Assembly (NCBI GenBank): GCA_038380795.1
Contig: CM076261.1
Span: forward strand, 12,406,556-12,470,555
DNA: 64,000 nt
From: Pyrocephalus nanus
Lineage: Eukaryota > Chordata > Aves > Passeriformes > Tyrannidae
Direction: 5' to 3'
In this document: positions 19,374 through 32,801 of the stretch, in pieces
Layout of the letters: every line of letters starts with the position of its first letter
Numbering within the stretch: the stretch's first letter is position 1
Notes under the pieces: model-generated
What the model was told of the DNA's origin: nothing
Databases searched by the model: none
Seen by the model: the letters and a program-made list of their open reading frames with translations, nothing else
Translations under genes and position numbers: made by a program

Positions 19374-21048
19374 TTACAGGTATTTGCGTTTGAAATAGGT
19401 GAGAGTGCTCCTCCCGGGGCTCCATGGCCTGCGGGACCCTGCCAGAGCCAGGGTGCTACCAGAGGGGCATGACCCAGAGCGGGTCAGGGTGGCATAAGGA
19501 GAGGGAGAGGTGGAGCGGGGTAGGGTGGTGTAGGCAGAGCGGGACAAGGTGTTGTAGGAGGAGCGGGACAAGGAGCTGTATGGAGGGCGTGTGAGGGTGC
19601 CGTAGGCGGTGCGGGATGAGGAATAGCCTGAGCGCCCCTCGGGGCTCCACAATGATCTAGAGGTGAGACCCCACATGGATTGGGAGCCCGAGCGAGTGGT
19701 GGTGTCACAGGAGGGGCCCCACTGAGAACCACACAGCGAGCGAGACCCCTGTGTGCCCACAAACCGAGAGATGGAACGAGAGGTAGGGGCATAGAGGGAC
19801 TGGGCTGTGACAGCTGACAGGGGGCGTGGGGATGGGGGGCATGGGAGGCAGGCTGCTGACGATGACTCCAAGGGTTGAGCTGCAGGAGAGCTGGCAGGGC
19901 GGGACCCCACAGCCCCCAGAGAGGCAGAAGTGGGGGAGCACAGCGAATGGGCTGCAGGGGGCCCTACTGGGCGGGAGGCCGGAGAGCACAGTGAGTGGGC
20001 TGCTGGGGGTCCCACAGGACGAGGGGCTGGGGAGCTCCTCATCTGCAGCCCTGTTGGGGTGGTGCTACGGTCAGCAGTGCGGGACACTGGGGAAGCTGCT
20101 GGGCAGGGGCTTGGGGAGCACACCCCGCGGGCTACCGGGGCACTCAGGGGTTGAGAGGCCAGGGTGGTCATTGGACCACATGGAGGCTGGGTGGTGGGAG
20201 AAGGTGCAGAGCCACAGACGACGTGTGATATGGAGGCACCAGGCACTGAAAGGGGAGCTGCAGATGGCATGGGACTGCCAATGGTGTGGACTACAGGAGA
20301 GCACATAGAGTAGGATGGTGGAGCAGACATATGGGTAGGGACTGCCTGGGTTGCCACAGTGGGACTGGGGCCAGCCATGAAGTGGGTCAGCAGTGCACTC
20401 ACCGCATTGTTTGCGGGGACAGAGACAGAATAGGACATCGGCCCCCCTCCAGCTCCAGGCAAGTGTGTGGGAGCAGAACCTGTCTCAAACACCACATGAG
20501 GCATAGGGGTGCACACAGGATTGGACGTTGGGGCAGGCATGGAGCCATACACGGATGGAGGCATCGGAGTGCACGTAGCAGGAGGCACCGTCTCGCATAT
20601 GACACGGAAGCCAGGATCGCATCCCATCTCAAAACCAGAACTGATGCTTGGATTGAATCCTTGGTTGCAGATGGAGTTGCATAAGGGATGGCCTGCAGGG
20701 AGGTACACGAAGTCGTACACAGGCTGGCCCCCTGCACTGCAGTTTGGGTTGCACACTGGGATACATATATATTCACACATGGAGTTGAACGCAGGGTCAG
20801 CCACAGGGATAGGCCCAGAGCCATTCATGGGGACAGAGCCATTCTCACATACTGGGAGTGACCCATTCTGGCTGACAGGCAGGACACCATTCTGGCCTGC
20901 AGAGCAGCACACTTCAGCCTTGGCACATCCCTTGCAGTAGGCAAACTTATGGCATCCAAAGTTGGCCAGGAGCCGGTGGCTGCCAAGCCTATAAGGTGTG
21001 AACTCCACAATGGTCCGTGCCTGTTGGTTGGATGCCAGTGTTCCCAAA
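19374..21048 (-). CDS. Transglutaminase-like gene, terminal exon 13: end of barrel 2 plus a 511-residue low-complexity tail
   Basis: The first ~46 codons (ARTIVEFTPYRLGSHRLLAN and onward to AKAEV) complete the second beta-barrel. Homologues normally stop soon after. Here the frame stays open to TAA at 19376-19374. The tail begins with Cys/Asn/Gly-rich octets (QNGSLPV-like), passes through a Pro/Ala/Thr/Met/Cys region, then two copies of RPVGPPAAHSLCSP. It ends in Ser/Arg/Tyr octets (for example SYNTLSRS) and the basic terminus FKRKYL. It has about 25 Cys, about 13 Gln and Lys only at the very end. No transmembrane segment or known globular domain is seen. The exon is markedly GC-rich against AT-rich flanks. 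A 557-codon open frame joined in phase to a conserved gene is unlikely to be chance. Confidence 0.9.
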
Positions 21049-24000
21049 CTGAAACAAGAGAAGGAAAAGAATTAGGACCCTAGGTAGCTCAGAGACCTGA
21101 AGCGCTACAAGATGAGCACAAAAAATTGGGTTTGATTTGCTACAACATTCTTAGAAACAAAGTGTTTTGACAACTTTTTATTCCTTACTTCCTCCAAAAA
21201 AACCCACATTCTTTGTTTTGAAAAGCATGGTAAAAACTTCTGTCCCAAGAGAAAATTTGGAATACTCTTGTAGTCAATTCTGTAATTGGAACTGGGAAAT
21301 AATTTGTGATATTGTCTTGAATTCTTAAAAAAGTTAGTACCCTTCTACCTCAAAGATGTATTTACTGATTCACATTTCCAGCAGTCTAAGTTTGATCGGG
21401 CAGCTTTGTGGAATTGAGTTCATTATTATTCAGTGAGAACAATTCCTAATTGCTTCCCCTCAAAACTAGTCATACTTTGTCAGTTCTCCTTGTCATGAAG
21501 CACAGCAATGCATATTAATGAACAGCTACTTTTCCTAGGAAAACTAACTGGAAGTTTCCAGTTTCCTGTGATTAACATCTTATGACTTTAGAATGCATAC
21601 TGGTGTTTCTCACTGTCATTCTCTAATTGTTCCTATATGTGGAGCTAGTTCATGAATATTTAGAGGAATTTTATTAAAAGTCGATAGGATTGTAAGGGAC
21701 TCAGTTAGCACTTCTTGTAAAGACAAGAGTGAATTCCCTTTCAGAAAGGAATTTGATACATCTACTTAAATTAAATCTTGAGAAAAATGAAGCAGCAGTG
21801 TATCTGTCAGCTTTAAATGATCCATCAGTTTCAAGAGGAGTTAGGCTTTTAATGGAGTCTCAGACTAATAAGGGGCAAAAAGTCCTGTTCAGGTGTTAAA
21901 CACCAAAAAATCAGAACTAATATTTTCTTCAAAACCTGCTCTGATCTTGCACACCTTAGTCACCCCTCAATATTATCCACGTTTAAATAACTGATGAACT
22001 TACTCAATGGTCATTGGCTCTTTGAATAAACCACAGCCTTCTAATGTCATGACACAGTTCTTCATATCTTCCTGGAGAGGATTGCAGAAGGAGATCTCTG
22101 CAGTACATGGTACCTTCAGTCTGGGCTGGCTCAGTAGCTAGTCAGAAAATAAACATATTTTTTGTTTTGTAACCCTTACAAAATCAACAATGAAGTAAAT
22201 AAATGTAAAAATAAATAAATTAAAAAAAATATTCATACATGTTTCTTTCTGATTTAATCTGTGATCTCTATAATTTAAGTCAACTGTTATACTTTAAAAA
22301 TCGCACCAATCTTGCTAAAATAAAACTTATAGTAAAAAAAAAAAAAAAAAGTGAAGTATTTCAAGATCATTGGCCTTGTACCTAGGAGGTAGCCAATAAG
22401 AATCCTTAAATCTGATCCTTAGATAATAAATCCCATAATTAAAGTTCTTTACCTTTACAATAACAGGTGGTCTGTTGATCACAATATCCCTGCTCACCAT
22501 CAGAACTTCTCCACACTCTGGGTCTGAGACAGCAACTACTTTCATAATGTTGTGATCACACAGGTAAGGTCCATACTGACTATACGAAATACACAGTGGA
22601 ATTTTTTTCACTGTAAAACAAATTAATTTTTTTTTCCTGAATTATTATTGTTTCCACTTTCCTTCCTCCTAAAGTTTAACTGAAAGTTATAATGGCTTAA
22701 ATAAATATCAAGGTATATCACAGCATCTTTTAAAACAGATAGGATTTTTCCTGACCTAGGGTGATACATAGCCATCTTCAACAATAAGTTTCACTATTTC
22801 CAATTAATATATCAGTGCATTTACAAGGGAATTAGATGTTTATTATTATTATTATTATTATTATTACTCAGAATTTGGAAACTTTCATTCCAGTTCAATC
22901 TTCAAGGAATAATTCAAATGTAGGCAAATTAAAGCTTAGTATTTTAATATCAATATGAAATTTTGTCTTATAATGATGCGTTTTAAGTAAAAGTGTCTTT
23001 TTTCTTCCAGAAATAAATATATTAACCCTGGAAACAGGTGTTTATGTTCTGCTACACCTTTGCACTTCCCAACATACGGTATGTCTAGGTGCTCTAAGCA
23101 AGTCTTTTACACTGGCTAATATCTTCTGGCCAAAGAAAACAATGCTTTTCTGATAGACAACTGCAACTTAACCTTTGCATCGAGTAGAGAGATCAGAATT
23201 TAAATTTTATTAGAAACAATTTTTTAAAGAATCTATAAGCTTTGAGAAATTAAGGAAAGACTACAGTTTACCTGTCACTATACATGTAGTATTGACACTG
23301 TGTTGATTTTTGAGGGATCACCCTAAAGGGAATTCAGCTGTCAGTAATTAACGCTGTATACGTTTCACTTCCCACCTCTATTAGGAAGTCTCCACAAATC
23401 CTAAAAACAGCAGTCTCCTGAAAAGAACAGGGTTTTAGACAATTTCACCTTCTTACCTTCTCTTGGACCCAGTGTGACATTCACACTGTCTTTCCAAAAC
23501 TGATCCATTGGGCAGCCACTGTAGGTTATAATTTGTGCGCACAAATTAAACTTCAGGGTTTTGTTTTCATTACGTAGATTTTCAAGCAGCCAGTGCAGTT
23601 GGACATCTTCACCATACATTGGACAGTTAGCCATCTTTAACCTCATGTTGATACCAGAGTCACTCAAAAATGGGTTTTTCAGAGATGATAACTCTCTGTC
23701 AATATGGCAGTTGGAAGCATTGCAGTACCCTGGGTGAATTCTTCTGTAGGCCCGGTAATAGGCTTCTTTGTTTTTCACAGAACCTGTTGAAGAAGACACG
23801 ATAATGCATCTGCTGGAGGTACAAGAAGCCTATTATTATTCTACTCAAATAATAAAGATAATTAAATTTATTGCTGCTTCTTCTTGGAACCTAAAGTACC
23901 CAGTTGGTCTAGCACAAATCCACCAGATAATGAAACACGAGATACAGCAGTCTGAATGCACAGAAGAAAATAAATGTCTCATGAAAAAAAATTTAAAAAA

Positions 24001-27000
24001 TTCTTTTACTTTTAAGTAGTTAAATATAAAGATGGTCACGTAAATCTCAAAATGTATCGTTAGCAAAACTAAAAATACAACTCTCTATAAGGAAAAGAGT
24101 GAATATAGAATGCTACCAGGTCTCTCAAAAAGGCTAAATACACCATTAAAAAAAAAAAAAAGAAACTATCAATTTTTTCGTTTTTGTTCCTATTAAAAAT
24201 AAAGTAAACTAAAAACATGCAAACAAACAAAAAATACTCCCCCCATCCCAACAACGAACCAAAAACAAAGAAAAAAAAGAACCACCCCACAGAGCTTGCA
24301 ATTGTACAATCAACTGTGATCCACCTTTCATTCCTCTAGGCAATTGTGCTGGTTGAAATCCTCCCTTCTACTGGAATATGAAAACCAGTAATCTATAGCC
24401 CAAAGTAAGAATAGCAGAATATTTTAATAATACATGAATTTAGTAAGTAGGTATATTTTCTGACAGACCCTGTACAAGAAGCAACAAGTAAGACATTAAT
24501 CCTAGGTTTAGAAGAATTTGTGGTTTTTTTAGATTCTCTCAAGTCTGCTAATATTTTAAACTACTGTACAGATGAGATGAAGATATGTACATAATGATGT
24601 TATTCTAAGGGCCGGAAGGCATATCCTTAGAGCAGCTAAGGACTTTGGGTTTGTCTGGTTTGGAGAAAAGGAGGCTGAGAGGTGATCTCATTGTTCTCTG
24701 CAGCTTCCTGATGAGGAGAAGTGGAAAGGGAGGTGTTGAGCTCTTTATCCCAGTATCCAGGGACAGGAAGTATAGGAATGGTTCAAAGCCATGCCAGGGA
24801 AGGTTTGGACTACACATTAGGGAGCATTTCTTTATTGAGAGGCTGGTCAAACACTAAAACAGGCTTCCTAGAGGGATAGATTGTGTCCTTTGGTTGTCAG
24901 CACCTTTAAAAAAAGGCATTTAGACAATGCCCTTAATAGTATGTTTTAACTTTTAGTCAGTCCTGAAGTGTGAGGCAGTTGATGAGATGATCATCATAGG
25001 TCCTTCCAACTGAAACATCTTATTCTATCCTAAATGCATCTAATTACTATGTGCTTTGTTTGAATCACCTAAATATATTTAGAAGTTTAAGAATCAAGGT
25101 CTTTGAACAGAAAAGAACCTTCCTCCTTCTCAAAAAAAAAAAAAAAAAAGACAATTTCAGATTGTTCTACACATTTTAACACAGCAGGGATTACATTGAT
25201 ACTTTTCTATGATTAGCATATAAAATTTCCTCTAACCCATTTAATATGCTTTAGTCATACCTAGTTCATACTTGTAAGCTCCAGTGATATCTTCAAATTG
25301 CTCACTGCCAATACTCTTGGTGATTAGACGTTGTCCACATGGCCAAGTGTCACAGAAAAATTTTGTTCTTTTGCCATTGTTTTGGGAAAGCCAGCCAACA
25401 TAGTTTGAATTTACTCGAGAAAACATATGATGACCATCATAATCCAAGTCCAGTTCCCCTTCCCTGATGCTTCGAACCCATGTCGGACCACTGCAAGCTG
25501 AACCTAGACCATGGAAGAAAAATGTTATAACACATTGTAACCTAAGTAGAGAAAACAACATAACACAAGGAAAATTATTACAATTATAGTAAACAGCTAC
25601 CTCTGCCAGTTTCCAAAGGTGTTGGATCTAGACACTGCCAATCACCACAGCACTGATTTATGTCTCTGCGAGCCATCCAAGATTCATTCCAGCAGTGGTA
25701 TCGCCTATAGGATGAAGGAATAGGAATATAGAAGTAAAGACATCTCTTGGATTACAAAGTTTAATTCCTTACAATGGAGAAGAACCACACCAGAGATAAT
25801 ATTTTAATCCTCAGAATTCTTTCTATGTCTTAACCCTCTTAACAATGGGGACAGGAGTGGTTTTGTTTGCTCAGACTAGAAATTTACTCTATAACACCGC
25901 AGACCTGATTGTAAAATGTGTGTCTTTTAGTTGATAACATGCCAACATAGTTCTTCTGTTTAGGTAGTTTCTTTTCCTAATACTTTTCTCCTGATTCTTT
26001 AGAAGAAAATCATATACTCAGTCATATTTTTAATGGCTTAAGAAAATATAAACCCCAAGTATTTTATGCTAAAATCAGATCCTCATTCCCCTAGTATTTC
26101 ATTTTGACCTCATCTTTTTGGCATGTGATACAGTAGAAAATTCACTGAAAGGTCTCACAGATGAGATTTGGACACAAAAAAAAATTCTCATGATCTATTT
26201 CATACTTTTACAGTTACTAAGTTTGACGGCTTTATTTTTCACCTGAGGATAAACAGTCAGAATGGATTCTCACAAGAAGCTTTGCTTTTTTTTTCTTTTC
26301 TGAAAATATACATTAAGCAGACTGCCTCTTTAGTAATTTCAAGTTTTTGAAATGCATTATTAGAAAAACGAACAGCCTTACCACACCAGAGAAAAAAAGA
26401 AACCAAAGAGATACATTGATCTGCTAGATTTATACCAGTTTTTCTACCATTAAATTTTTTTAAAAGACCAAAAGAGCTTTATATTTTTCTTATTTACCAT
26501 AGCTTGTCTTTGCCACACAAGTTTTTGCCAGTACAGTCAAAAATCTCATTGATACCAAGGGGATTCTCAATTGAGCATGGAAAACAGAAGTTTGTTACAA
26601 CACGGCTTGGAATTCCCAAACATCTCATCACTGAAAGAAAAAAAATATGAATGAGTCATTACAAATCACAATTAATCAGGCAAATCCTTCTCTCATTTTA
26701 TAAGTAATTATTGTATGTCCTAATTTGCAATTATAGAAACAGAATGGATTGGAGGCAGTATTTGGGATGCAGTGATTTTGTCTTCAAAACTTGTTTTTAG
26801 GTTTTGCAAAGTCTGGAAAGGCTTAGCAGAAAGGAATAGCTTGTTACTATTCCAACTTAAAAAAAAAAAAAAACAAACCACAAACAAAAACCAACCAATC
26901 AAACAAAAAAAACACAACCAAAAAATAAAAAAAAATTGTAAAAAAAAAAAAAAAGCCCAAACAAAACCAAAACCAGATCTGTTTTAATTTTAGAAATCAT

Positions 27001-30000: not shown

Positions 30001-32801
30001 GCCTTTTCAGGAAAATAAAAACAACTTCCATCAGACTAAACAAAGCACATGTAAAAGGCTAGTAATTTGCTTAGCCATCATTTGCAAGGCGAAGCTCCCA
30101 AGGGTGGATTTCTTTTTCACTTGTCACTTCTGTAGCACAGTGAGAAAACTTTACATATTAGAAGAACTGCCTGGTTTAGGGGAAGGCAATCTCTTCACAT
30201 GGAAGATGAATGAGTAGATAATAGTTGTCACTGAAGATTATGGGAAATATTACAAACCAGCAAAGAACTATGAAAGAGTGCTTGGTAATGAGTACCTGTC
30301 TCCACAGTGAAAATAGCCTGGTCCACGGAGTCATCCCATTCCCGATTTTGGAAATGGGCATAAAAACTGAAGGCTTGCCCTCTCCTTATTATCTGTCTGT
30401 CAGTTCCGAAGAAATGAGTATTATGTATTTGACAGTTGGAAGGACAGTTCAAGTCGACATCTCCCAGCTCAATGACTGCAGGACAGAGAAAGGAACACAA
30501 AGGAAAAAAACCCATATAATTAAGTTCCCATCTTCGTCTGTGGTTAAGATTAGGTGGAAGAGGAAATAATGATTAAAGACAGAGATAATTCTTTCAAAAA
30601 ATTCATTCAAGACTTCATTCAAAATTCAGCAACTCTGAAATTGAGACATAAAAGTACTCTTGCAAGTTCACCACTTTGCTAGCTTGCAGATGGAAACTTG
30701 TCTAACTCTTTGATTTTTAAAGCTGTGCTACAAGTTTTACTTCTTTTATATAGTGTCTGTTTGTATTAGAAATACTTGATGCTGAGGGATGATCTTAGCA
30801 TCTCTACTCTCTACTTTAAAAACTGATTTTGTATAGTAATATTCTCTCCACATTACAACACACTGTCTACAGTCAGTTACTTTTCAACAACAGCAAGACA
30901 GCAAAAGTATTGCACGTTATCATTTGATCGAGTTTTTTATACAAGCAGTGAAATAATAAAGTAAATAGAATAATCTAAAGACTTGATAACAAATGTAGGT
31001 ATTTGAAAGTGGCACTCTAAATGATTTATGAAAAAATAAATACATATAAATATCTACACAGAACTGTAAACAGTGTTTAATATCCATGCAACTGTCTCAG
31101 TCTGTACTCCCAAAGTCATAAAAACTTTGCAGACCTCTTTGAGGAACCTAATGCAGAATGAAACATTCGCAAATTGTGACATTTAAAAAATGCTGACAAT
31201 CTACCCCAAGTGCTATGATTAGCTTGACAAAAATCTTGACTGATTCCCCCTTAGGCATTCTGCTTGCATATCAGCCATTTCATAGGAGTAATTATGACAC
31301 TGGTGCCAGAAGGATGGGTGGCAACGTTCATCTTTGCTTATTTGCATACCACTTTTTATTTTCAAAAGTGTTTCACTGTAATTGAAGACAATGGGAGCCA
31401 CAGATTCTCAGCAGTTTTGGAAACTTTGGGTTACTGAAGTACAAAGTCTTATATATTATTATAATTCTAAAGGGTTAAGTTTGATCCTGCTATGCCTACA
31501 GAAAAATCTAACAATATAACTTCTCTAACTTCATGGTACCAAGTTGAATACAGAGTTGGAATTTAAGGGAAACTAATTTTTCCCATCTAGAACCAAAGGT
31601 GTGTCCACATAAAAGGAGATTCGCATAGTGAAGCCCATGGAACCAGGACACTTTTAACACAAACCCCTGGAGTTTCACAGGATCACATCCTGAATTAAAT
31701 AACAATTAAAATTAATAGAGAGGAGAGGGTGGATAGGAAAAAAAAAAAAAAGAGCAGGTTTTTTTTCTCATTTGTTTCCTTGAATAAAAATATCTCATTT
31801 CTCATCTAAATATTTAAATGTGGTAATGAATTGGTCATTCAGCTCTTCAGTAGAGATCAGCAACAAATGCAGGCCTTGGGCACTACCCACGTCAAAAACA
31901 CACATATTAGCAACAACAACCAAAAAATACAGCAGTGGATTACATCACTCTTGCTCATGAATACATCATATCTGCTGACAAGAAAGAGCAACAGAATTGA
32001 TCTTGGATCTTAATGAGAGTTGTCAACCATAACATAAAGTGGTCTGGCAGAACAGAAAGTGCTTATGGCACATATGACAAATTCCTGTGAAGAGCACTGA
32101 AAGAACCTGATCCTTGCCTGGCCTCTGGAGGCATTTGTAAACCAAGACAACTACTCTTCATCCACTCATTAATCCAGCTGAACCGGAACATCAGGGAGTG
32201 GAGCTATTACATCTTTCCCAAGGAAGCTCTCTAAAGTCAGCCCACAGTTTACTTATCAGATTTAGGTATCACAACTGGATCACAAAGGAGCTAGTGATTG
32301 CTTTCTTAAGCAAAAGTAGCTCAGAAAAAAATATTAAAGGCAATTCAATTTCACATCTCTTACTGGTTTTCTGTCTCTGGGAGAAACCCAACTGTCAATA
32401 TCACTCAATGGGTTTTCTCTAACAATTCACATTTCGCCTTCATTCATTGTGAAATAATTGCTTCTAGCACGAGAATACTGAAAACTAGTACTTTATGCTG
32501 CAAATACAATGTATTCTTTTCATGCTATTTCTTATTCTCAAAATTGGCTGTTGTTTCACAAAGTCTCCATAGCTCTCTTTTTGCTTTATAAAAGTTTATT
32601 TTTCAGAAGTTTTTTTTCCCTTGACCCAGAGCAAAACCACGACACTCTACAAAGAACATTCAAACATACAAGCAGTTCCTAGACTTAATGCCATACACAA
32701 AAATATGTGTAAATTTCTGTCTGTACACCTGATCATTTAATTATTTCTGCTTTCAGTCCTGACTCAAAGAATAGTAAAGTTTCAAGACACTTACCTTCCA
32801 T
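19374..32801 (-). CDS. Transglutaminase-family protein with a long Ser/Pro/Cys-rich C-terminal tail (complete, 13 exons, 1209 aa)
   Basis: Transglutaminases form isopeptide bonds between protein Gln and Lys side chains. Coding exons in order are 32801-32795, 30475-30296, 30002-29760, 28827-28709, 28205-28077, 27841-27664, 26630-26498, 25704-25601, 25503-25261, 23783-23457, 22610-22453, 22137-22004 and 21048-19374. All have GT-AG borders and join in frame (3630 nt with stop). The family fold is visible: N-terminal beta-sandwich (about 1-140), papain-like core (about 141-450), two beta-barrels (about 450-698). Triad residues are C276 (VRYGYCG), H333 (RYHCWNESW) and D356 (CLDPTP). No signal peptide is apparent, as expected for the family. 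Residues 699-1209 are a low-complexity tail not found in the transglutaminases I know. Oddities: altered residues next to the active-site Cys, an eroded calcium loop and about 43 Cys in the core. The gene looks intact, not a pseudogene. Which paralogue it represents (TGM4, TGM5/6, EPB42 or a separate avian lineage) I could not decide, so no symbol is given. Family call very sure; enzymatic activity doubtful. Confidence 0.92.
19479..19610 (-). repeat. Octapeptide (24-bp) repeats near the C-terminus of the transglutaminase tail
   Basis: Four contiguous octets follow the pattern x-x-Tyr-x-(Ser/Thr)-Leu-x-Arg: TAYGTLTR, PPYSSLSR, SSYNTLSR and SAYTTLPR. A spaced fifth copy ends in YATLTR. The period is 24 bp. 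The Tyr-Ser-Arg composition recalls the head segments of keratins and other structural proteins; that resemblance is compositional only. Confidence 0.9.
19926..20021 (-). repeat. Two tandem 48-bp coding repeats in the transglutaminase tail
   Basis: Two adjacent 16-residue units share RPVGPPAAHSLCSP followed by AS or TS (20021-19974 and 19973-19926). The protein copies differ at one residue while the DNA differs at several synonymous sites, so the duplication is not brand new and the protein sequence has been kept. Confidence 0.9.
20802..20897 (-). repeat. Asn-Gly octets at the start of the transglutaminase tail
   Basis: Four imperfect 8-residue units: GQNGVLPV, SQNGSLPV, CENGSVPM, NGSGPIPV. 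Three contain Asn-Gly-Ser, which fits an N-glycosylation sequon if the protein were exported by the secretory route, though no signal peptide is seen. The 24-bp period is the same as that of the C-terminal octets. Confidence 0.8.
22004..22137 (-). CDS. Transglutaminase-like gene, exon 12 (second beta-barrel)
   Basis: 134 nt. AEISFCNPLQEDMKNCVMTL and EGCGLFKEP match the barrel-2 pattern (x-x-x-F-x-N-P-L, then x-x-x-E-G-x-G-L). The donor is GTAAGT. The last codon is completed in exon 13 as Asp. Confidence 0.93.
22453..22610 (-). CDS. Transglutaminase-like gene, exon 11 (end of first beta-barrel)
   Basis: 158 nt. The stretch KKIPLCISYSQYGPYL matches the family barrel-1 motif with I-x-Y-x-x-Y-x-x-x-L. 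It is followed by MVSRDIVINRPPVIVK, matching the R-D-x-x-x-x-x-P-x-x-x-x segment. It ends in phase 0 before GTAAAG. Confidence 0.92.
22840..22866. repeat. ATT/TTA trinucleotide microsatellite
   Basis: About eight or nine consecutive TTA units inside intron 10 of the transglutaminase-like gene. Confidence 0.95.
23457..23783 (-). CDS. Transglutaminase-like gene, exon 10 (linker and first beta-barrel)
   Basis: 327 nt. It starts with GSVKNKEAYYRAYR, the helix that follows the core (family pattern G-S-x-x-E-R-x-x-x-x-x-A). It ends in the strands of barrel 1 (NVTLGPREG). The middle is divergent and Cys-rich. Confidence 0.9.
24605..25030 (+). mobile_element. CR1 LINE 3' end, plus strand (antisense in intron 9 of the transglutaminase-like gene)
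   Basis: The end of a CR1 element is recognisable: a GGAGAAAAGGAGGCTGAGAG-like segment, then CTCATTG..CTCTGCAGCTTCCTGA, then TTTCTTTATTGAGAGGCTGGTCAA, then a terminal GGTCCTTCCAACTGAAACAT..ATTCTAT. These are the familiar landmarks of the CR1 reverse-transcriptase end and 3' UTR. Substitutions and small deletions are numerous, so this is an old, immobile copy. Confidence 0.85.
25261..25503 (-). CDS. Transglutaminase-like gene, exon 9 (end of catalytic core)
   Basis: 243 nt. CSGPTWVRSIREGELDLDYD matches the family C-G-P-x-x-V-x-x-I-x-x-G segment. VNSNYVGWL and ITKSIGSEQFEDITGAYKY match the end of the core, where the family has S-T-K-x-V-G-x-D-x-R-x-D-I-T-x-x-Y-K. The canonical Arg before the Asp is absent. 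Confidence 0.93.
25601..25704 (-). CDS. Transglutaminase-like gene, exon 8 (active-site His and Asp)
   Basis: 104 nt, the canonical exon 8 size. RYHCWNESWMARRD carries the catalytic His (H333) and GDWQCLDPTP the catalytic Asp (D356), both in standard context. Confidence 0.95.
26498..26630 (-). CDS. Transglutaminase-like gene, exon 7
   Basis: 133 nt, about two codons shorter than in TGM2. It opens with VMRCLGIPSRVVTNF, a near-perfect match to the family motif. The following loop, normally S-A-H-D with calcium ligands, reads CFPCSIENPLG instead. The last codon is split and completed by exon 8 as the conserved Trp just before the active-site His segment. Confidence 0.92.
26858..26990. repeat. 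A/C-only low-complexity tract in intron 6
   Basis: A long run composed almost wholly of A and C on the plus strand (AAACAAACC, CCAACCAATC and poly-A blocks). It is G/T-rich in the sense of the transglutaminase transcript. Confidence 0.85.
27300..27375 (+). mobile_element. CR1 3'-terminal fragment, plus strand
   Basis: The short segment GTTGGACTAGATGACCTTTA, then AGGTCCCTTTCAACTCCAAC and TATTCTATGATTC, is the diagnostic terminus of avian CR1. Only the last ~75 bp is present, the usual result of 5' truncation. It lies in intron 6 of the transglutaminase-like gene, antisense to it. Confidence 0.88.
27664..27841 (-). CDS. Transglutaminase-like gene, exon 6 (active-site cysteine)
   Basis: 178 nt, the canonical exon 6 size. 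It encodes the active-site helix. SWNGSVPILQQWYNG aligns with the family's W-x-G-S-V-x-I-L and VRYGYCGSLASVMCT with V-x-Y-G-Q-C-W-V-F-A. The nucleophile is C276. The flanking Gln is Tyr and the following Trp is Gly. The residue matching TGM2 Trp241 lies in IPENNDY and is Pro or Glu. Confidence 0.94.
28077..28205 (-). CDS. Transglutaminase-like gene, exon 5 (start of catalytic core)
   Basis: 129 nt, the canonical exon 5 size. It encodes FEDGILDICLKILD and DPVHVSMVVNHM, matching the family motif F-x-x-G-I-L-D-x-C-x-x-L-L-D and the D-P-V-x-V-x-R-x-x-x-x-M helix. The usual Arg of that helix is Met here. Confidence 0.94.
28709..28827 (-). CDS. Transglutaminase-like gene, exon 4
   Basis: 119 nt, the canonical size of exon 4 in this family. 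It encodes DDPVYMDNQAHREEYVLNEH and the WHFGQ that leads into the catalytic core. The exon 3 junction restores the Asp codon. Confidence 0.94.
29268..29600 (-). mobile_element. CR1 LINE 3' region, minus strand (sense in intron 3)
   Basis: Read on the plus strand, the left edge shows ACAGAATTACAAAATAGTTG, then GGTTGGAAGGAACCTCTGGA and GGTCATCTGGCCCAACCTCC, the reverse complement of a CR1 terminus. It continues through CTCAGTCACCCTCACAGTAA and TTTCAGTTTGTCCCTACTG, both standard CR1 segments. The copy is old and interrupted. Confidence 0.88.
29760..30002 (-). CDS. Transglutaminase-like gene, exon 3 (beta-sandwich)
   Basis: 243 nt. It ends in DFYVLFNPWCAG, the counterpart of the family motif LLFNxWCxxDxV that closes the N-terminal domain. 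Nine cysteines fall in about 80 residues, far more than usual. The donor is GGTAAGG and the exon starts in phase with exon 2. Confidence 0.92.
30296..30475 (-). CDS. Transglutaminase-like gene, exon 2 (start of N-terminal beta-sandwich)
   Basis: 180 nt. It encodes residues 3-63, including the stretch IIRRGQAFSFYAHF, which matches the conserved Arg-Arg-Gly-Gln-x-Phe strand at the start of transglutaminases. Acceptor TGCAG and donor GGTACT are on the minus strand. A Cys pair (CPSNC) replaces the usual polar residues early in the domain. Confidence 0.9.
30476..32794 (-). other. Intron 1 of the transglutaminase-like gene
   Basis: 2.3 kb, AT-rich. It has a short A run at about 31,738-31,753 and no recognised interspersed repeat. 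A 60-codon minus-strand open frame (31219-31401) lies here; I do not regard it as an exon. Confidence 0.6.
32795..32801 (-). CDS. Transglutaminase-like gene, coding exon 1 (Met-Glu plus one base)
   Basis: The exon reads ATG GAA G followed by the donor GTAAGTG. Splicing to the acceptor at 30475 gives M-E-V-I-E-L-G-D-V-D-L. A first coding exon of only a few codons is the usual arrangement in this family, and the phase (one base carried over) fits exon 2. The start context AAAAATGG has a purine at -3 and G at +4. No other ATG in frame lies before the conserved beta-sandwich strand. Confidence 0.65.

Follow-up and report, generated by a model that had tools for sequence, protein, structure and literature searches.

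What kind of protein results when a transglutaminase fold runs on, within a single exon, into a long tail of structural type? The question is raised by a 64,000-nucleotide stretch of the Pyrocephalus nanus genome (contig CM076261.1, positions 12,406,556 to 12,470,555; hereafter, the window), in which the sole open reading frame (ORF) of at least 200 amino acids (19374-21071, minus strand, 565 amino acids) holds the last exon of a transglutaminase-type gene. A sequence-only reading of this DNA had held that the exon ends the second β-barrel in 46 codons and then stays open for 511 more, and both the ORF list and the joining of exons reproduce these figures exactly. The same reading took the system to be undescribed; the gene, however, is TGM9, already published (PMC11152450). 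The gene and its expression are thus known, while the loss of catalytic residues, which makes TGM9 a probable pseudo-transglutaminase, and a clade-specific tail appear to be new. Judging from its sequence, it probably acts as a structural, disulfide-linked constituent of hard cornified tissue, such as the egg tooth and the feather.

The identification draws on several observations. Highly similar bird proteins retrieved in the protein search carry the name 'transglutaminase 5 (-like)'; PMC11152450 names the gene TGM9, distinguishes it from TGM5 and places it between TMX3 and DSEL. TMX3 adjoins the gene in the window (six pieces, same strand, upstream), the window sequence falls within a 47-member TGM9 clade with a support of 1.0, and five of the six published chicken TGM9 primers match with 0-2 mismatches and the sixth with four. 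One primer, R2, published as 'reverse', was matched in the sense orientation. The public model from Zootoca vivipara (P0149) consists of TMX3 fused to an initial portion of TGM9, an independent observation in keeping with the adjacency of the two genes on one strand.

PMC11152450 reports TGM9 transcripts from the chicken egg tooth, where three replicates also contained the protein; TGM9 protein further occurred in developing flycatcher feathers, and the gene was expressed in lizard claws. Its authors propose a contribution to cornification and link gain and loss of the gene with the amniote egg tooth and with claws, on the view that TGM9 cross-links proteins. PMC11704414 describes TGM9 as lost in mammals, snakes and worm lizards, PMC12821399 counts it among enzymes that cross-link proteins and are enriched in the egg tooth, and PMC11816140 and PMC12665336 each mention it once. 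The main text of PMC11152450 contains no residue analysis of TGM9: 'catalytic' occurs three times (twice on EPB42 and once in the references), and 'tail', 'C-terminal', 'active site' and 'histidine' are all absent. Neither the tail nor the loss of catalytic residues is described in the consulted passages of open-licence PMC papers on TGM9.

Catalytic and calcium-site residues

Sites were counted in a main alignment of the 120 best matches plus the window (24 TGM9 against 97 other transglutaminases), and in a wider one with P0149 set aside (47 TGM9 against 144 others, the latter including several long fused gene models). The matches were the best 120 of 1432 from a first search and the best 120 of 827 from a second; fragments P0121 and P0122 were excluded from the tree and the site counts, and P0149 was dropped from the tree because of its low coverage. 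Numbering was anchored on C272/H330/D353 in P0107. We take W236 and W273 of TG3 to correspond to W241 and W278 of TG2, and N224, D301, N305 and E443 of TG3 to lie within its three calcium sites.

In the main alignment, the equivalents of TG3 W236 and W273 are tryptophan in 97 of 97 other transglutaminases and in none of the 24 TGM9 sequences. The wider alignment gives the same picture, as tryptophan occupies both positions in 144 of 144 others, and neither the W241 position in the 43 TGM9 sequences with a residue there (E in the window) nor the W278 position in the 45 with a residue there (G in the window). The calcium-site positions N224, D301, N305 and E443—retained in 96, 93, 94 and 95 of the 97 others, respectively—read S, S, P and L in the window and are conserved in 0 of the 24 TGM9 sequences, two of which have no residue at D301/N305. 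In the wider and rougher alignment, where the calcium-site-1 columns differ from those of the main alignment by gaps and a few N, a single TGM9 has N at 224 and none has D301, N305 or E443.

A scan without preselected sites, over the 123 positions that are at least 97% invariant in the other transglutaminases showed that TGM9 keeps 87, partly keeps 19 and loses 17. All 17 lost positions lie in the catalytic core, nine of them at 221-236 or 271-274, and they include TG3 236 and 271 (the equivalents of TG2 W241 and Q276); as these regions were chosen after the lost positions had been seen, the p values of the clustering test are descriptive. The window retains the Cys-His-Asp triad, and the equivalent of TG2 W332 is retained in 41 of 43 TGM9 sequences. 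The nucleophile itself is replaced by serine in six of seven turtle sequences (P0017, P0018, P0126, P0128, P0129 and P0133) and in no other TGM9. The six are all cryptodires, while the side-necked turtle Pelusios (P0130) keeps the cysteine, which places the loss of the nucleophile inside the turtle clade.

Work on TG2 bears on these positions. Neither the W241A nor the C277S mutant shows detectable transamidation (PMC2701606), W278 is described as crucial for transamidase activity and W332 as important for isopeptidase activity (PMC5332030), and W241 and Q276 hydrogen-bond an active-site inhibitor (PMC7139744). The loss of both tryptophans is common to platypus, lizards, turtles, crocodile and birds and therefore most likely predates their split. 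Altogether, the view that TGM9 would be devoid of transamidation is strongly supported by these replacements and, with both tryptophans and several calcium-site residues gone, the label 'cross-linking enzyme' is doubtful for TGM9.

Gene structure and tail

The gene is intact, comprises 13 exons and encodes a predicted protein of 1209 amino acids. Exons 2-13, joined along the minus strand from 30.5 to 19.4 kb, all have AG/GT borders (12 of 12) and consistent phases. For exon 1, ATGGAAG followed by GTAAGT (32801-32795) is the only ATGGA[AG]/GT[AG] candidate within 30475-60000; once joined, it yields MEVIELG, which matches the N-terminus of P0001-P0004. The features are as follows.

32795..32801, minus: TGM9 exon 1, coding part (ATGGAAG; ME and the first base of V), from start-pattern search and relatives' N-termini
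30296..30475, minus: TGM9 exon 2, from AG/GT borders (phase 1 in) and tblastn with P0149
29760..30002, minus: TGM9 exon 3, from borders/phase and tblastn with P0149
28709..28827, minus: TGM9 exon 4, from borders/phase and tblastn with P0149
28077..28205, minus: TGM9 exon 5, from borders/phase and tblastn with P0149
27664..27841, minus: TGM9 exon 6, with the calcium-site-1/W236 loop (Trp lost) and the nucleophile Cys in VRYGYCGSLAS (following Trp lost), from borders and alignment
26498..26630, minus: TGM9 exon 7, with the TG3 D301/D303/N305 loop replaced (FPCSIENPLG), from borders and alignment
25601..25704, minus: TGM9 exon 8, with catalytic His and Asp retained (RYHCW, CLDPTP), from borders and alignment
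25261..25503, minus: TGM9 exon 9, from borders/phase
23457..23783, minus: TGM9 exon 10, from borders/phase
22453..22610, minus: TGM9 exon 11, from borders/phase
22004..22137, minus: TGM9 exon 12, from borders/phase
19374..21048, minus: TGM9 exon 13, the end of barrel 2 and then the tail, stop at 19374-19376, from the ORF list and joining
19377..20909, minus: Ser/Pro/Ala/Thr/Cys tail of 511 residues (517 counting from the residue after YCKG), from translation
19722..20402, minus: possible in-frame intron in the tail, 681 nt, GTGAGT...TTCTCAG, from splice sites and models P0012/P0010
54983..62988, minus: TMX3 exons in six pieces, 5' of TGM9, from tblastn with the Zootoca TMX3-TGM9 fusion P0149

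The whole protein matches the transglutaminase N, core and C domains of Pfam (PF00927, for barrel 2, at 2.1e-31) and, with its N domain, core and C-terminal barrels, belongs to the vertebrate transglutaminase fold family, homology and structure prediction both indicating that the four-domain fold is retained; its closest solved structure by sequence is TG3 (E 4.4e-139). Exon 13 alone gives no Pfam match past the cut-off, barrel 2 remaining sub-threshold (E 0.24). Two side observations concern gene models of other birds. The public model of Ficedula albicollis (P0002) has a duplicated exon-8-like stretch within the core, probably an annotation fault. Moreover, 3' of the TGM9 stop codon, window positions 19005-18925, 10545-10459 and 3911-3777 (minus strand) match the last exons of P0013, P0014 and P0005 (E 4e-8, 4e-5 and 2e-8, respectively), so that this sequence is conserved with the ends of those models.

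The tail contains 17.6% Ser, 15.3% Pro, 9.2% Ala, 7.8% Thr, 4.9% Cys and 0.4% Lys and holds short imperfect repeats, in agreement with the composition and internal repeats first ascribed to it. Thirty TGM9 models cover barrel 2 to its end. In 12 of them the tail measures at least 436 residues: the window, the nine bird models P0001-P0009 (ostrich and tinamou included), one crocodile and one sea turtle, the 11 beside the window spanning 436-549 residues. A search in other birds, crocodilians and turtles had been suggested as a check on the tail, and it is in these groups that tails were found. Nine further models, from birds and turtles, terminate earlier or splice within the tail, and the remaining nine (eight squamates and one platypus) stop 18 residues past the barrel, with no squamate exception. 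The sequence-only reading had considered a lost stop codon; a recent event of this kind is contradicted by a tail common to birds, crocodile and sea turtle. By parsimony, the tail would have been gained in the ancestor of turtles, crocodiles and birds, the outgroup beyond squamates being a single monotreme.

Tail identity to the window amounts to 61-79% in five other birds, 42% in the crocodile and 38% in the sea turtle—a degree of retention that argues for more than a chance ORF. Comparison of body and tail, which took in eight of the 12 long-tailed sequences, gave identities to the window of 97/79% for hummingbird, 90/64% for ostrich, 75/42% for crocodile and 75/38% for turtle. An early stretch of the tail is conserved (CEYxCIPxCN...YDxVYLPxGHPxC), and a C-terminal YFKxKY[LV] recurs in eight of the nine further bird models with long tails, as deep as ostrich and tinamou. 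The repeats are lineage-specific, with the SHAMSTPAS[HR]PICTPV type in crocodile (P0015) and CGSxPQVV in sea turtle (P0017); bird tails have SRSxYxTL-type repeats close to the C-terminal end. A protein search with the tail alone returned five matches, all of them TGM9, with no donor gene and no other family. The tail is predicted to be disordered: in the AlphaFold2 model of the pigeon orthologue (P0004, Columba), the ten-residue mean of the predicted local distance difference test is 23-34, also past residue 780, but rises to 44 for residues 701-710 and to 44-49 for 741-780.

Structural and catalytic readings of TGM9

The window protein carries 42 cysteines in its body and 26 in its tail, whereas 88 other TGMs average 15.4. 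Long tails hold 1-3 lysines each and, being nearly devoid of this residue, are unlikely lysine donors for a transglutaminase. TGM3 is present in the egg tooth, as are EDDM, EDCRP and the cysteine-rich keratin KRT9LC3, three proteins proposed to be cross-linked by disulfides (PMC12821399). From the lysine-poor, cysteine-bearing tail together with these cysteine-rich proteins, we infer that TGM9 is a disulfide-linked structural component. Our hypothesis for its incorporation is that the folded body would form a stable hub set with cysteines, and the tail a flexible Ser/Pro strap; as the cell cornifies, tail cysteines would bond to each other, to cysteine-rich keratins and to proteins of the epidermal differentiation complex (EDC). 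Cross-linking via TGM9 would thus consist of disulfides, and both the isopeptide bonds of the egg tooth and the transglutaminase activity observed over it would be due to TGM3 or a different active member of the family.

Several observations weigh against this structural reading. Derived cysteines are conserved across archelosaurs in 10 of 26 cases, not significantly above the 74 of 255 for other derived residues (Fisher p = 0.37), and the tail evolves fast, the window-ostrich identity being 64% for the tail and 90% for the body. Some calcium-site residues persist in TGM9 (N393 in 24 of 24, D324 in 17 of 22 and E448 in 4 of 24), as does most of the triad (C in 39 of 45, H in 44 of 44 and D in 43 of 45, wider alignment), which leaves room for some remaining function of the site. 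TGM9 mRNA co-localises with TGM activity in the egg tooth of the chicken (PMC11152450), and five bird models (P0010-P0014) deviate from the full tail. Neither a purified-TGM9 assay nor disulfide mapping was found in the consulted passages on TGM9.

These points bear unequally on the alternatives. That TGM9 is the active cross-linking enzyme of the published account, with the tail anchoring or targeting it in the cornifying cell, would suit the triad of the window and other birds, the co-localised activity and the grouping with cross-linking enzymes in PMC12821399. We consider it distinctly unlikely, as the W241 and W278 equivalents are gone from every TGM9 that covers them, calcium-site residues are replaced, the W241A mutant of TG2 has no detectable activity (PMC2701606) and most turtle sequences lack the nucleophile. 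The last of these also speaks against a residual activity other than transamidation, e.g., isopeptide or ester hydrolysis, and so does the loss of the W241 and Q276 equivalents, both of which contact the inhibitor in TG2 (PMC7139744); even with His and Asp nearly always retained, and with the widely kept W332 equivalent matching a residue that matters for isopeptidase where W278 matters for transamidase (PMC5332030), such hydrolysis seems very unlikely. A dead enzyme could instead regulate or dock active transglutaminases (TGM3) or keratin filaments, its tail being a scaffolding arm free of cross-links—a rather unlikely arrangement, which has no known partner and for which the many cysteines in body and tail are superfluous.

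The tail might also be mostly spliced out or untranslated in vivo, the open frame being an annotation effect. It does hold a GTGAGT donor and an in-frame acceptor, and four of the five deviating bird models depart at or near the candidate intron sites: P0012 (Lonchura) skips the stretch matching 20402-19722, its junction falling exactly on those sites, and shares its acceptor with P0010 (Melospiza); P0013 and P0014 leave the tail at the same point, following PANNA. The 20402-19722 segment may accordingly be a candidate intron giving a short-tail isoform. However, P0003 is a full-tailed TGM9 of 1215 residues encoded on a contig of at most 4393 bases (source labelled 'lgn'). The gene spans more than 13 kb in the window, so P0003 most simply represents a spliced transcript carrying the tail in full. 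With the C-terminal motif shared by long-tailed birds, this makes general removal of the tail extremely unlikely. P0003 also bears on the suggested fusion of a cross-linking enzyme with a structural polypeptide: the joining of a transglutaminase fold and a structural-type polypeptide in one protein stands, whereas the attribute 'cross-linking enzyme' is put in doubt by the tryptophan and calcium-site losses.

Taking TGM9 as a disulfide-linked structural protein, we tentatively outline a history that is quite possible, if short of probable: a TGM duplicated in stem amniotes would have lost its calcium and transition-state chemistry, kept the fold and gained cysteines; the ancestor of turtles, crocodiles and birds would have added the disordered cysteine-bearing tail of roughly 440-550 residues, for which no donor is recognisable; and the dead enzyme, itself disulfide-linked, would partly harden egg tooth and feathers. 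If TGM9 cannot cross-link, its connection with egg tooth and claws must run via structure or binding, not catalysis. If the scenario is true, TGM9 would stand as a clear example, among vertebrates, of an enzyme fold put to use as structural material and later extended, in one clade, by a disordered tail.

Comparison with known systems

By its TMX3 neighbour, clade and primers, the gene is the same as the published TGM9 (Sachslehner et al. 2024, PMC11152450). EPB42 (erythrocyte protein 4.2), described as inactive in PMC11152450, differs from TGM9, which forms a separate clade, mostly keeps the triad, has lost both tryptophans, is rich in cysteine and bears a tail in three lineages. Unlike TGM9, the TGM3 and TGM5 sequences examined keep W241, W278 and the calcium-site residues, and those obtained end shortly past barrel 2. 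Lying beside TMX3 and divided into 13 exons, the gene falls outside the EDC structural proteins; no EDC protein is among the five tail-search matches, and neither the Pfam search of exon 13 nor the tail-only search found a sequence relation to cysteine-rich cornification proteins. The likeness of TGM9 to EDCRP, EDDM and the cysteine-rich keratins is one of working principle—a high cysteine content in egg tooth or feather, with disulfide linkage proposed for those proteins (PMC12821399).
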